Shown here piece after piece: positions 31,118 through 36,702 of a DNA stretch of 51,487 nucleotides. The notes under the pieces are model-generated. The model saw only the letters and a program-made list of their open reading frames with translations, was not told the origin of the DNA and did not search any database. The position numbers and the translations under genes are program-made. Where the stretch lies: the NCBI GenBank assembly GCA_003242035.1, contig QBMC01000011.1:1-51487 (forward strand). The letters run 5' to 3'. How positions within the stretch are numbered: the first letter of the stretch is position 1; each line of letters begins with the position of its first letter. The DNA comes from Nodosilinea foveolarum. GTDB lineage: Bacteria; Cyanobacteriota; Cyanobacteriia; Phormidesmidales; Phormidesmidaceae.

Positions 31118-31208
31118 ATTCAATGGCTGGGCGATCGCCCGGTTCAAAGTCCTAAATCGAATATCCGCAGACAAACAAAGCTAATCACTTACTAAAGAGG
31201 AAAAACGA

Positions 31209-32327
31209 ATGGAACTGATGATTGAAGACTTGATGGAAGAAGTGATTGAGCGCGGTGGCTCTGACCTTCACCTATCGACCGGCATCCCGCCTTACATCAG
31301 AATTAGCGGTCATCTCACGGCAACCGACCATCCGCCCATGACGGCTGACATGTGCCAGCGACTAATCTTCAGTATGCTGAACAACTCTCAGCGAAAAATT
31401 CTAGAGCAAACTTGGGAACTAGACTGCTCTTACGGCGTACGCGGATTAGCCCGTTTTAGAGTCAACGTTTACAAAGACCGAGGCACTTATGCCGCCTGCT
31501 TACGCGCCCTCAGCTCTAATATTCCGAGCATGGACGTACTGTGCCTGCCACCTATCGTGACTGAACTATCCGAGAAACCTAGAGGTCTAGTTCTCGTCAC
31601 GGGTCCTACAGGTTCGGGTAAGACAACGACCCTGGCGTCGATGATTAACAACATTAATCTGACTCGCGCCGAGCATATCTTAACCGTGGAAGACCCCATT
31701 GAGTTCGTGTACGAACCCATCAAGAGTCTGATTCACCAGCGTCAAGTTGGCGAAGATACCAAAAGCTTCTCAAATGCACTACGCGGCGCTTTGCGTGAAG
31801 ACCCGGACGTGATTCTAGTGGGCGAGATGCGTGACCTAGAAACTATCTCTCTGGCTATTTCCGCCGCCGAAACCGGCCACCTAGTATTCGGCACCTTGCA
31901 CACTAGCTCCGCTGCACAAACCGTAGACAGAATTGTAGACGTGTTCCCTCCTGCCCAGCACCAGCAAATTAGAGTACAGCTTTCAAACTCGCTGGTGGCA
32001 GTACTCAGCCAAACCCTAGTCACGAAGCAGAACGTTAAGCCAGGCGAGTATGGTCGAGTCATGGCGCAAGAAATCATGGTGGTGACACCGGGTATCTCCA
32101 ACATGATTCGGGAAGGAAAGACCGCGCAAATCTACGGTGCGATTCAAACAGGCGGTCGCCTCGCGATGCAGACATTAGAGATGGCGCTGGCCGATTTGTA
32201 CAGAAAAGAAACGATTAGCTTTGAGTCGGCAATGTCCAAAACATCGAGGCCCGAGGAGCTACAGCGGTTAATTGGAGGTGCGCCAGGTGCGGCTAAAGCT
32301 CAAGCAGCTAAAGCTGGACATCGGTAA
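31209..32327 (+). CDS. pilT: Type IV pilus retraction ATPase PilT
   Basis: The 372-residue motor depolymerises the pilus. After an N-terminal PAS-like domain (GGSDLHLSTGIPPYIRISG) it has Walker A LVTGPTGSGKTTTLASMI near residue 130, Walker B REDPDVILVGEMRDLETI and the His box FGTLHTSSAAQTVDRIVDVFP. The PilT-specific AIRNLIREGK-type motif is present as GISNMIREGKTAQIYGAIQTG near residue 300, which distinguishes it from PilB. AGAGG stands 7 bases before the ATG. It starts 91 bases after pilB in the same direction. A Gly/Ala/Lys-rich tail ends the protein. Confidence 0.97.
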   Translation: MELMIEDLMEEVIERGGSDLHLSTGIPPYIRISGHLTATDHPPMTADMCQRLIFSMLNNSQRKILEQTWELDCSYGVRGLARFRVNVYKDRGTYAACLRALSSNIPSMDVLCLPPIVTELSEKPRGLVLVTGPTGSGKTTTLASMINNINLTRAEHILTVEDPIEFVYEPIKSLIHQRQVGEDTKSFSNALRGALREDPDVILVGEMRDLETISLAISAAETGHLVFGTLHTSSAAQTVDRIVDVFPPAQHQQIRVQLSNSLVAVLSQTLVTKQNVKPGEYGRVMAQEIMVVTPGISNMIREGKTAQIYGAIQTGGRLAMQTLEMALADLYRKETISFESAMSKTSRPEELQRLIGGAPGAAKAQAAKAGHR

Positions 32328-32447
32328 CCGAATCTCGATCAACGATTCTAGTGAGTCAAGCTCATCTGTCTAGGATTTGGCTATTCCCGGACTCAGCTAT
32401 TCCAAAGTTCAGCCTTTCAAATCCAGCTATTCGAGTAAGAGAAACTT

Positions 32448-33668
32448 ATGCCTACCTACGTTGCCACTGGCCGGGATGTGACGGGTAAATCCGTCCGCAG
32501 AAAGGTGGAGGCCGACACGCCCGCATCCGCCAGAATGATTGCCAAAGATCAGGGCATTCATATTCAGAACATCACCGAGAGCAAGGGCAGTAGCTTTAGC
32601 TTTGCGGATATTAAAACCTCCATGGTGAAGGTAACCGTTAAAGACAAAGCGGTTTTCTCTCGTCAGTTTGCAGCGCTAGTGTCTTCGGGCGTGGCCCTGG
32701 TACGCGGCATTGGCATTTTGGCCGACCAGTGCCCCAACCCTAAAATGAAGCAAGCGCTGATGGGCATCAATGCCGACGTGCAGCAGGGAACAAATCTCTC
32801 TGATTCTATGCGCAAGTATCCTAAGTGCTTTGACAACCTGTACGTAAGCATGGTGCAAGCTGGGGAAGTTGGCGGCGTACTAGATGAAGTCCTTAACCGC
32901 TTAGCTAAGCTGCTAGAAGATCTAAACCGGTTGCAGAATCAAATTAAGTCGGCAATGGCTTATCCGGTCACAGTCGGCTTTTTGGCGGTTACCATCTTCA
33001 TCGGCATGACCGTCTTTTTGCTGCCGATTTTTGCCGAGATTTTTGAAGACTTAGGTGCGCCACTGCCGCTCTTTACTCAGGCGCTAATGGCCATTAGTAA
33101 AATGCTGAGAACCTGGTATTTATCACTGGGACTGGTTGCCGTTATCTCGGTGCTGGTGTTTGTTTACAAGCAGTATTACAAAACACCTGTAGGCCGCGTG
33201 ACGATGGACGGGTTCTTCTTAAAAATGCCGCTGTTCGGCGACCTGGCACAGAAGTCTGCAACGGCCAGATTTTGTCGTACCTTTGGGTCTCTTTCGCGTT
33301 CGGGGGTGCCGATTCTGACCGCGCTGGAGATTGTACGAGATACTTCAGGAAACCAAGTGATTGCCAACGCAATTAATGCTGCGCAGGCGGAAATTCAGTC
33401 GGGTGGGATGATTAGTCTGGCCCTGCAAGAGCATGGAGTGTTCCCAGTGATGGCAATTCAGATGATCAGCATCGGGGAGGAAACCGGCGAGCTGGATCAG
33501 ATGCTGATGAAGGTGGCGGACTTTTATGAGGATGAAGTGGAGCAGGCGGTGAAAGCACTGACGAGTATTATGGAGCCGATTATGATCGTGGTGCTGGGTG
33601 GTATGGTGGGTTCGATTCTGGTGGCAATGTATTTGCCGATGTTCTCGGTGATGGATCACTTGGGATAG
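32448..33668 (+). CDS. pilC: Type IV pilus inner-membrane platform protein PilC
   Basis: The 406-residue membrane protein is the platform on which PilB and PilT act. Two T2SSF domains are visible. The first (about residues 65-190) has FSRQFAALVSSGVALVRGIGIL and MVQAGEVGGVLDEVLNRL. The second (about 270-395) has FCRTFGSLSRSGVPILTALEIV and ISIGEETGELDQMLMKVADFYE. Hydrophobic segments lie near residues 170-195, 220-245 and 375-400. MVGSILVAMYLPMF is the typical C-terminal membrane helix. The gene follows pilT by 120 bases and is closed by a terminator at 33713-33743. All essential parts are present. Confidence 0.97.
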   Translation: MPTYVATGRDVTGKSVRRKVEADTPASARMIAKDQGIHIQNITESKGSSFSFADIKTSMVKVTVKDKAVFSRQFAALVSSGVALVRGIGILADQCPNPKMKQALMGINADVQQGTNLSDSMRKYPKCFDNLYVSMVQAGEVGGVLDEVLNRLAKLLEDLNRLQNQIKSAMAYPVTVGFLAVTIFIGMTVFLLPIFAEIFEDLGAPLPLFTQALMAISKMLRTWYLSLGLVAVISVLVFVYKQYYKTPVGRVTMDGFFLKMPLFGDLAQKSATARFCRTFGSLSRSGVPILTALEIVRDTSGNQVIANAINAAQAEIQSGGMISLALQEHGVFPVMAIQMISIGEETGELDQMLMKVADFYEDEVEQAVKALTSIMEPIMIVVLGGMVGSILVAMYLPMFSVMDHLG

Positions 33669-33712
33669 AAAGTTGGATCGCCGGTCATATTAAAAAGTGA
33701 ATTCATGAATAG

Positions 33713-33743
33713 AAACCCAGCTCGCAGTAGTGAGTTGGGTTTT
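33713..33743 (+). terminator. Rho-independent terminator of the pilBTC operon
   Basis: AAACCCAGCTC pairs with GAGTTGGGTTT around an eight-base loop, followed by TTTTATT. It lies 45 bases after the pilC stop, before the next gene, which therefore needs its own promoter. Confidence 0.85.
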
Positions 33744-33791
33744 ATTATGTTCTTCATTGATTAAGATAAATAGGGCTAGGAGAGAACGAAC

Positions 33792-34745
33792 ATGGTGGAA
33801 AGCGTTAAGGTACGCCAGCGAGTTGGACAGGATGGTATTCTGCACCTTGAAATTCCGGTCGGACTCACTGACCAGGATGTCGAGGTGATGGTGATTTACC
33901 AAGTTGCGCCAATAGATATCCAACAAAATCTAAAAGATGGCTTCGAAAAACAGCTTTTTGAAGCAGCTCTTTCCAATTTAAGGGATACGGAAAATCCACT
34001 TCGATTCAATAATTTCGCATATGCGACTAGAGAATTAGTACGTCACATTTTAATTAGAATTGCGCCAGACGAAGAACTCGTAAAGTGCTCCTGGTATAAA
34101 AACGAAATAGAGAGTAGGGAGAACGGCATCACACGTAGGCAGAGAGTCTACTACGCTGTGCAAGGTGGACTATCTAATGAATACGTTAGAGATATTCTTG
34201 GTATTGACATCATAGAAATGCAGAAGTTTCTCAAGGATGCAGTAGACAAAATGAGTAAATACACTCATATTCAAGAGAAGACTTTTAACATTGATGATTC
34301 GAAAGTAGAGAGGTTTGTAGAAGAGACATTATCAGCAGTGTCTAGCCTATTTTCAACTGTTAAGAAGAAACATAAAATTATAACTTCTGCTCTCTGGGAA
34401 CAAATTGACGAATCGACGGTTGATTCAGCACTCAGCGAAACCATTCTTTCTCTTGATGAACTTTCTAGTCATCACAGCATTGAGGAAGTGTACACAAGCG
34501 ACATCCAAATAATAACCATAGACGGTGACTTCATTCGATTCAGAGCTGAAGGAACTATTGCCTGCGAGCTGCAATGGGGTTCTGGCTCAGACATGAAACG
34601 CGGAGATGGCGCAGTAGCATCACACTCGTTTCCTTTTACGTGCGAGCTTTGGAGTTCTGTAAGCGAACCAGAGGATATTCAAACAGAAGAAGGGGCTTTT
34701 AGCGCTGATACTAGCTCGTGGTGGAGTGAGTACACTGATGAATAA
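33792..34745 (+). CDS. Unassigned 317-residue protein, possible pPIWI-associated nuclease type
   Basis: I do not recognise this gene with certainty. Residues 1-40 form a small beta unit (VRQRVGQDGILHLEIPVGL then DVEVMVIYQV), like the N-terminus of small cyanobacterial antitoxins. Residues 65-190 read NPLRFNNFAYATRELVRHIL, APDEELVKCSWYKNE, TRRQRVYYAVQGGLSNEYV and MSKYTHIQEKTF. The C-terminal part has DFIRFRAEGTIACELQWGSG, then GDGAVASHSFPFTCELW. From memory the middle and end resemble the paired domains described as predicted nucleases associated with prokaryotic PIWI-RE proteins. No PIWI-like or helicase gene is adjacent. The gene is AT-richer than its neighbours, lacks HIP1 sites and has its own AGGAG ribosome-binding site. 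Transfer is likely. Catalytic residues cannot be named. Confidence 0.5.
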   Translation: MVESVKVRQRVGQDGILHLEIPVGLTDQDVEVMVIYQVAPIDIQQNLKDGFEKQLFEAALSNLRDTENPLRFNNFAYATRELVRHILIRIAPDEELVKCSWYKNEIESRENGITRRQRVYYAVQGGLSNEYVRDILGIDIIEMQKFLKDAVDKMSKYTHIQEKTFNIDDSKVERFVEETLSAVSSLFSTVKKKHKIITSALWEQIDESTVDSALSETILSLDELSSHHSIEEVYTSDIQIITIDGDFIRFRAEGTIACELQWGSGSDMKRGDGAVASHSFPFTCELWSSVSEPEDIQTEEGAFSADTSSWWSEYTDE

Positions 34746-34833
34746 TTCCTTGGGTTCATTAGGACAAATCATTCACGCACACAGACCTTTAGGAATGAGA
34801 ATTTAATAAGTTGCCGATCTATTTCCGGCCACC

Positions 34834-34891
34834 CTTCGACTACGCTCAGGGTTCGGAATCAGCAACTGCCGCTGGCTGAGCGCAGTCGAAG
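34834..34891. repeat. Inverted repeat of the CTTCGACTACGCTCAG type
   Basis: CTTCGACTACGCTCAG at 34834-34849 is matched by CTGAGCGCAGTCGAAG at 34876-34891. The arms are 16 bases with one mismatch (a G-T pair in RNA) and a 26-base spacer. Such CTTCGACTacGCTCAG palindromes are, as I recall, common interspersed intergenic elements in several cyanobacteria and other bacteria (REP/BIME-like). It lies between two convergent genes. Confidence 0.75.
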
Positions 34892-34959
34892 CCAAAACCT
34901 ACCGATCTACGAAAGCGCTTCTTATTCAATCCTCGTCCCTTAGCAAGCTGATAGATAGG

Positions 34960-36702
34960 CTAAGCGAGAACTTCTTTGAGCTTGTGCTGGTTCCAAAGAT
35001 CTTGGTAGAGGCCGGGTTGGGTGACGAGTTCTGTGTGGGTGCCGGACTGGGCGATGCGGCCTTTGTCCATGACTAGGATGCGATCGCACGAAGCCGCTGC
35101 CGACATTTGATGCGAGACAAAAATCACGGTTTTCCGCTGCGTCTCACTAGAAAGGTTATCCAAGATTTGAGTAGCCGTTTGATTATCTACGCTAGAGAGC
35201 GCATCATCTAGTACGAGAATTGGCGCATCTACTAATATCGCCCGAGACAATGCCGACCGCTGCCGCTGACCGCCAGAAAGCGTGATGCCTCGTTCGCCTA
35301 CCAGCGTTTTGTATTGGTTGGGAAAGTTCAAAATCTCGCCGTGAAGCTGGGCTTCTTTGGCCGCGTATTCTACTTCGCGCTGCTCGGCAGTCGGATCGCC
35401 GTATCGAACATTATTTTTGACGGTGGTGCTAAATAGGAAGCTGTTTTGGGGGACGAAGGCGATCGCTCCCCTCAAATCCGACAGCTCTACCTGCGTCACA
35501 TCTAGCCCGTCTATAAACAGCTCGCCCGTCTCAATCTCTAGCAATCGGGGGAGGGCCATCGCCAACGTTGATTTGCCCGACCCAATCGGCCCGACCACGG
35601 CCACAGTCTGTCCCGGTTCAATGACAAAATTCACCCGATCTAGCGCCGGACGATCGGAGCCTGGAAAAGTAAAGGTAAGATCGTGGGCTTCTAGTCGGCC
35701 AATTGGGTTCGGGAGGGCCATCGCGCTCGAAGTATCGCGAATCTCTGGTTTGGCGGCGAAAATAGCCTCCACCCGATCTAAGCTGACCTCGCCTCTTTGG
35801 TAAGCCGTAATCGTAAAGCCCAGAAGCGCGGTTGGAAAAACGAGCTGCTGGATAAACAGGAAGATAGCAACAAAATCACCCGCCGTCATCTGGCCATTGC
35901 GAATCGACTGAGAGCCAATCGCTAAAGCGATCACCAAGCTTAGACTGGCAAAGCCACCCAGCAGTGGGAAAAGAATATTTCGAGTTTTAGCGAGCGCCAG
36001 ATTCGCGTCTAGCAAGCTGCTATTACGCTGAGCAAACGCCAGCCGCTCATTCTCCTCTTGAGCGTAAATTTTCACCAGCGAAATGCCGCCCATATCTTCC
36101 TGAATCAGATCGCTGATGTGGGAGATTTCTTCTTGGACATCTAGCTGCTGTCGTCGCAGACGATTGCCAAAAACAGCCACGACGCTAAACATAACCGGAT
36201 AGACAGCCAGAGAAAAGAGCGTCACGCGGCCATCTAGATTAGCCATCGCAGGCACGATCAGGATGTAGGCAAAAAACGTATTGGCTATACTCAGCACGGC
36301 AAATCCTAGCAGACGACGAATATTATCTACATCGCTCGTCGCTCTATTGATCAGGTCACCAATCGTATTTCGTGCAAAGTAAGCCGGTTCTAACGTTAGC
36401 AAATGCTCAAATATGCGCTGTTTGAGGTCGAACTCTACTTGCCGACCTACGCCAAATATCAAAATCCGCGAAGCCATGCGGATAAACCACATAATGCTCG
36501 CCAGTACAAATACCAGCAAAACGTAGCGCACAAGCCGACCAAAACTAAACGTAACGGTCAGCTCGTCAACGATATAGCCAATGATCAGCGGGATAGACAC
36601 CCCAACCGCATTAACGACTAACAAGGCCACTAGGCCCAAAATTACATCCTTTCGATGCGGCTTCAAGTAAGCAACAAACCGCATCAATCTCGATTGAGCC
36701 AT
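34960..36702 (-). CDS. ABC exporter, fused permease and ATPase (MdlB/MsbA-like)
   Basis: From the ATG at 36702 the protein has 580 residues; the frame extends 18 codons upstream without a convincing signal. Six membrane segments are expected in residues 15-310 (for example DVILGLVALLVVNAVGVSIP). The coupling-helix region contains FEHLLTLEPAYFARNTIGDLINRATSDVD. The ATPase domain has VAVVGPIGSGKSTLAMAL (Walker A), FVPQNSFLF (Q-loop), GITLSGGQRQRSALSRAI (signature), PILVLDDALSSVD (Walker B) and IFVSHQMSA (switch His). It is a half-transporter that must dimerise. Substrates of such exporters (lipids, drugs, peptides) cannot be read from sequence. It is transcribed leftward, alone. Confidence 0.93.
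   Translation of the reverse strand: MAQSRLMRFVAYLKPHRKDVILGLVALLVVNAVGVSIPLIIGYIVDELTVTFSFGRLVRYVLLVFVLASIMWFIRMASRILIFGVGRQVEFDLKQRIFEHLLTLEPAYFARNTIGDLINRATSDVDNIRRLLGFAVLSIANTFFAYILIVPAMANLDGRVTLFSLAVYPVMFSVVAVFGNRLRRQQLDVQEEISHISDLIQEDMGGISLVKIYAQEENERLAFAQRNSSLLDANLALAKTRNILFPLLGGFASLSLVIALAIGSQSIRNGQMTAGDFVAIFLFIQQLVFPTALLGFTITAYQRGEVSLDRVEAIFAAKPEIRDTSSAMALPNPIGRLEAHDLTFTFPGSDRPALDRVNFVIEPGQTVAVVGPIGSGKSTLAMALPRLLEIETGELFIDGLDVTQVELSDLRGAIAFVPQNSFLFSTTVKNNVRYGDPTAEQREVEYAAKEAQLHGEILNFPNQYKTLVGERGITLSGGQRQRSALSRAILVDAPILVLDDALSSVDNQTATQILDNLSSETQRKTVIFVSHQMSAAASCDRILVMDKGRIAQSGTHTELVTQPGLYQDLWNQHKLKEVLA

Follow-up and report, generated by a model that had tools for sequence, protein, structure and literature searches.

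The window, by which we mean the whole 51,487-nucleotide stretch of Nodosilinea foveolarum DNA analyzed here, has an open reading frame (ORF) of 317 aa at exactly 33792-34745 (+). The upstream neighbors were the core genes grpE, pilB, pilT, and pilC, and the downstream neighbors were core genes for an ABC transporter (convergent), DUF218 and DUF1517 proteins, and thiamine synthesis, in keeping with the original prediction of a solitary gene amid core genes. A terminator-like hairpin with a 14-pair stem and a T-rich tail (33712-33743, +) stood between pilC and the ORF and closed the pilBTC block; about 1.4 such hairpins are expected by chance in the region, which makes it weak alone. The gene had its own ribosome-binding site as claimed, CTAGGAG at about 33772-33778, at the head of a leader that ran to the start codon (33772-33791, +). 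A sequence scan between the hairpin and the start codon gave no convincing promoter, and the neighbors within the window included no defense gene. Protein and DNA identity to antitoxins delimited a head of 42 codons (33792-33917, +) that corresponds to the first half of a gene for a VapB-like antitoxin and provides the start codons. Pfam, PADLOC, AlphaFold2 models, and the starts of homologues delimited a pP_pnuc body of residues 43-317 (33918-34745, +), composed of a helical half (43-204, pP_pnuc_1) and an NTF2/cystatin-like half (205-311, pP_pnuc_2). Together these parts form a chimeric gene, gained at this locus, whose front comes from a VapB-like antitoxin and whose body is of the pP_pnuc family.

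The body matched Pfam pP_pnuc_1 (PF18165) at residues 45-181 (5.6e-42, 143 bits vs a curated cut-off of 26.3), pP_pnuc_2 (PF18166) at residues 192-311 (8.4e-34, 116.8 bits vs 25), and PADLOC Aga_Nuclease at residues 43-311 (2.8e-101). Profile search thus recovered the nuclease-like body that had been proposed, with matches to both nuclease-family profiles rather than to none. In an alignment of 20 family members, R80, P92, and H159 were invariant (20/20) and R115 and T158 varied once each; the window protein kept all family-conserved residues (R80, P92, R115, T158, H159, G254, G263, and D267). Relatives of the body from genomes, plasmids, and viral contigs aligned from about residue 39-49 in nearly all cases and had short, unrelated N-termini of their own, with the antitoxin head on 0 of about 20. 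The closest relative found was 63% identical and came from a delta-proteobacterial MAG. NCBIfam offered no curated name for the chimeric gene or the antitoxin, sequence searches of the PDB with the body or the antitoxin gave chance-level matches only, and a literature search under the Pfam and PADLOC names found no experimental data on the pP_pnuc family.

AlphaFold2 produced a confident two-part body, with mean pLDDT of 80 for the whole protein and 90 for the helical half alone, and an unreliable head model (pLDDT below 50). The C-terminal half resembled NTF2/cystatin-like domains (best Z 8.5 over 97 residues, 3.9 A), a common arrangement. The helical half resembled many bundles, none of them outstanding, including the sacsin HEPN domain (Z 6.3 over 112 residues, 4.4 A). 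Foldseek found no significant PDB match for either body half, no solved nuclease fold matched, and no DNA-binding fold was found for the chimeric protein, leaving the terms "nuclease" and "self-regulated" of the original prediction at the level of prediction. The helices and the histidine would suit an RNase of HEPN type, yet this assignment is unsupported by profile comparison: hhalign with DUF4145 gave a probability of 0.2%. The HEPN RNase motif is Rx4-6H (PMC3710099), and the family had the invariant H159 with no conserved R at that spacing.

Head residues 1-43 matched proteins of about 80 aa encoded within the same bacterial family, with identities reaching 83-87% (83% to the antitoxin of congener G003). 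These proteins are VapB-like antitoxins by position because a PIN-domain toxin gene came next wherever the following gene was read, and the one PIN toxin scanned fit the NCBIfam model for tRNA(fMet)-specific VapC (NF047863). The antitoxin-like N-terminus first noticed in the sequence is that of VapC-paired antitoxins, for which Pfam, NCBIfam, and solved structures gave no match to a known family. At the DNA level the head was 78-86% identical to the four best antitoxin loci (84-86% for the best two), and BLASTN similarity across these four ran from about 33777, in the ribosome-binding site, to 33901-33918. The leader was likewise alignable with those of the relatives' antitoxin genes, with BLASTN homology to L033 and L034 from about 33777. 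Similarity to antitoxin L031 ended at 33918, where the body homologues begin.

The join fell in the variable linker of the antitoxin, between its conserved front (ESVKVRQRVGQDGILHLEIPVGL...VMVIYQ) and its conserved tail (LYGICADDPI...ALDEDLAGAFE), and both the toxin-binding tail and a PIN toxin gene were absent at 33918-34960. With the join in the linker, the fusion cost the antitoxin its toxin-neutralizing tail and took from the body no more than a few residues at its native N-terminus. No in-frame start codon occurred at codons 35-60, so a start in the head is needed, at codon 1 or 2 or possibly at codons 32-34. Relative to the antitoxins the head had a dN of 0.05-0.09 and a dS of 0.77-3.7, mostly silent changes as among the antitoxins themselves; the sequence pattern would suit constraint as well as a fusion of recent date. 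Every other close head copy that was read belonged to an unfused antitoxin, and the head-body combination was found in no relative searched. An apparent second fusion in G060, a 181-codon open frame, was rejected as an ordinary antitoxin whose frame merely extends upstream. The source genome had no second copy of the head's antitoxin. It did carry a PIN toxin relative with 45% identity near a contig end (L074, C2:48-416), possibly part of another toxin-antitoxin pair. At loci L032 and L034 the antitoxin gene lay directly behind hsdM, as if in a type I restriction-modification operon.

The body had a GC content of 40.6% vs 50.8% for the window (z -3.1), the lowest of any stretch of that length in the window (43.7% was the minimum elsewhere). 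The head (first 126 bases) was host-like at 50%, and thus the deviant base composition that had been claimed holds for the body. The claimed absence of HIP1 sites was also correct but is uninformative: the window had 63 sites, about 1.2 are expected per gene of this size, and the HIP1-free gap (31131-35080) also takes in the core genes pilT and pilC; we therefore rejected it as a sign of foreignness.

A pP_pnuc gene occurred in 5/192 related genomes (source included) and in 0/6 congeners, and among 386 genomes sampled across the phylum only the source genome, a draft of 299 contigs with one copy, passed the cut-off. This sporadic distribution is not that of a vertically inherited core gene, the outcome that would have spoken against the original prediction. 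The distance from the pilC stop to the end of the ABC gene was about 85-130 bp in congeners G001, G003, G005, and G006, and the two genes were also adjacent in G008 and G010. With this short spacing in the congeners, the 1.3 kb present in the window represents a gain. The gained segment includes a 148-bp MITE (34792-34939) that has terminal inverted repeats and shows a TTA duplication. The genome carried seven or more nearly identical copies of this MITE, which was recently active, since three other copies were 100% identical over 106 bases. The terminator- or repeat-bounded setting that had been described stands on the 5' side, where the hairpin is weak by itself, but the 3' repeat is this separate and unrelated MITE; flanking repeats as the transfer ends of the gene were rejected. 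In G018, from another genus of the same family, the same antitoxin-VapC pair (L038/L097) lay directly 3' of the ABC orthologue in opposite orientation. That orthologue was 65.6% identical to the window's, and DUF218 adjoined the ABC gene in both genomes. The arrangement hints that this antitoxin-toxin pair, or an insertion hotspot, existed earlier at this site, and we do not rely on it.

The pP_pnuc relatives were lone genes on plasmids, in prophages, and beside defense genes, and the neighborhoods of homologues fit the association with defense that had been suggested. In G163 (L052, 4714-16366) a pP_pnuc gene lay between TnsB/TniB/TniQ-type transposition genes and the BREX genes BrxD, BrxHI/II, and PglZ. 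Others adjoined a Lamassu-type LmuB gene and a DUF4062 gene (Pseudomonas), PDC-S06 (viral contig L067), an Mrr-type gene (Methylobacterium), and, on Rhizobium plasmids, multiubiquitin/E2/ThiF genes or genes for a cytosine methylase and a very-short-patch endonuclease. The E. coli relative examined (L060, CP122779.1) was on a phage-plasmid-like IncY plasmid that encodes phage tail and baseplate proteins and a Dam-type methyltransferase; in all, relatives occur on more than 20 plasmids of E. coli. IMG/VR contigs held relatives as well, and a phage genome collection gave no match at 1e-5.

The pPIWI-RE system is described as a PIWI/REase/DinG triad, and no protein of the pP_pnuc kind appears in the portions of that paper considered here (PMC3702460). 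Annotation and inspection of part of the neighbors showed no PIWI or Argonaute gene beside the relatives, and the window neighbors included no pPIWI-RE or Argonaute gene. The source genome had no match to PF02171 (PIWI), for which the positive control was detected; a search for pPIWI-RE with PF13032 was uninformative, as neither the genome nor the positive control matched. The gene is solitary outside a PIWI-RE operon as proposed, but a solitary state is the norm for the pP_pnuc family rather than a peculiarity of this site.

We consider the chimeric gene to be, with a probability of roughly 0.6, a horizontally gained solitary defense effector whose start signals, and perhaps a dimerizing or DNA-binding head, come from a local antitoxin; the effector role is likely by analogy with the company of the relatives. 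Under this proposal the body would have arrived by horizontal transfer as a solitary pP_pnuc gene from the set that travels on plasmids, in prophages, and in defense islands. In front of it stands the first half of a VapB-like antitoxin gene of a type frequent in this cyanobacterial family (ribosome-binding site, start codon, and about 42 codons), joined in frame within the antitoxin's linker and replacing the nuclease gene's own start. The product could act against phages or plasmids by damaging nucleic acid once triggered, and it may depend on an unlinked partner. We infer that the helical half would be catalytic (R80, E81, R115, and T158-H159) and that the NTF2-like half would bind or oligomerize. 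The head would supply local translation signals, and perhaps dimerize the protein or tether it to DNA, possibly at its own operator.

The readings differ on how much the head does in the protein. It could be a passenger: the in-frame join would be accidental, bringing in a ribosome-binding site and start codon, and the head would have no part in protein action. We hold this tentatively and below our main reading, given that the antitoxin homology extends from the ribosome-binding site across the start codons, that the body lacks an in-frame start at codons 35-60, and that other family members have short unrelated N-termini; the retained antitoxin residues and low dN/dS argue against it, weakly, as they cover 36 codons of a possibly recent fusion. 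At the other extreme, the head may be a DNA-binding and dimerizing module that represses its own transcription and holds the effector inactive, a one-gene self-controlled defense module with the antitoxin tail swapped for an effector, which as a model we regard as unlikely. It seems similarly improbable that the head still takes part in a toxin-antitoxin circuit, by binding vapBC operators in trans or because the fusion replaced a vapBC pair once at this site. The antitoxin-toxin pair directly 3' of the ABC orthologue in G018, with DUF218 adjoining, would suit such a history, but that pair is oppositely oriented relative to the ABC gene, the source genome has no second antitoxin copy, and its PIN relative is only 45% identical and at a contig end.

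A separate question is what the body does. Instead of a nuclease, the protein may be a sensor or an effector of a different type, in which a helical bundle is joined to an NTF2-like domain and the nuclease name stems from association with Argonaute operons. We find this somewhat doubtful and still worth serious weight: no nuclease fold matched, the C-terminal half is NTF2/cystatin-like (Z up to 8.5), and numerous bundles match the helical half, among them the sacsin HEPN domain at Z 6.3. Against it, the residues that never vary (R80 and H159) or almost never vary (R115 and T158) resemble an active site, and the DUF4145 comparison does not support a HEPN kinship. Finally, the 299-contig draft raises the thought of an assembly error at the join, but the reading frame continues through the join, which sits at a linker, and the genome's own core genes bound the insert on both sides, so that an error would need two wrong joins; we judge it highly improbable.

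Our preferred reading, the horizontally gained defense effector, would make this locus a concrete example of how a mobile defense-type gene can gain expression after transfer, here by capturing the 5' part of a toxin-antitoxin gene already present in the host, with the junction at a domain linker. The locus also points to a widespread, uncharacterized two-domain family that occurs alone in defense islands, plasmids, and prophages, and the name "pPIWI-associating nuclease" fits poorly with the occurrence of the relatives examined here.

Among known systems, the coiled-coil-headed pP_pnuc_1 proteins of G037 and G086 (L050 8503-9423 and L051 9254-10132), conserved across two cyanobacterial families, likewise combine the helical domain with an N-terminal addition, but that addition is a long coiled-coil-like front and the pP_pnuc_2 half is missing. 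With the VapB-like antitoxins of cyanobacterial pairs that include a tRNA(fMet)-type VapC, the window gene shares residues 1-42 and the ribosome-binding site, and it differs in having neither the conserved tail nor an adjacent PIN toxin gene. Window residues 43-311 resemble the pP_pnuc_1/pP_pnuc_2 family (predicted pPIWI-associating nuclease; PADLOC Aga_Nuclease) in domains, order, length, and invariant residues; the differences are that an antitoxin head of 42 residues replaces the short native N-terminus and that no pPIWI or Argonaute partner lies nearby. The pP_pnuc gene itself is thus of a known kind, and what is new is the antitoxin head on a solitary member of it.
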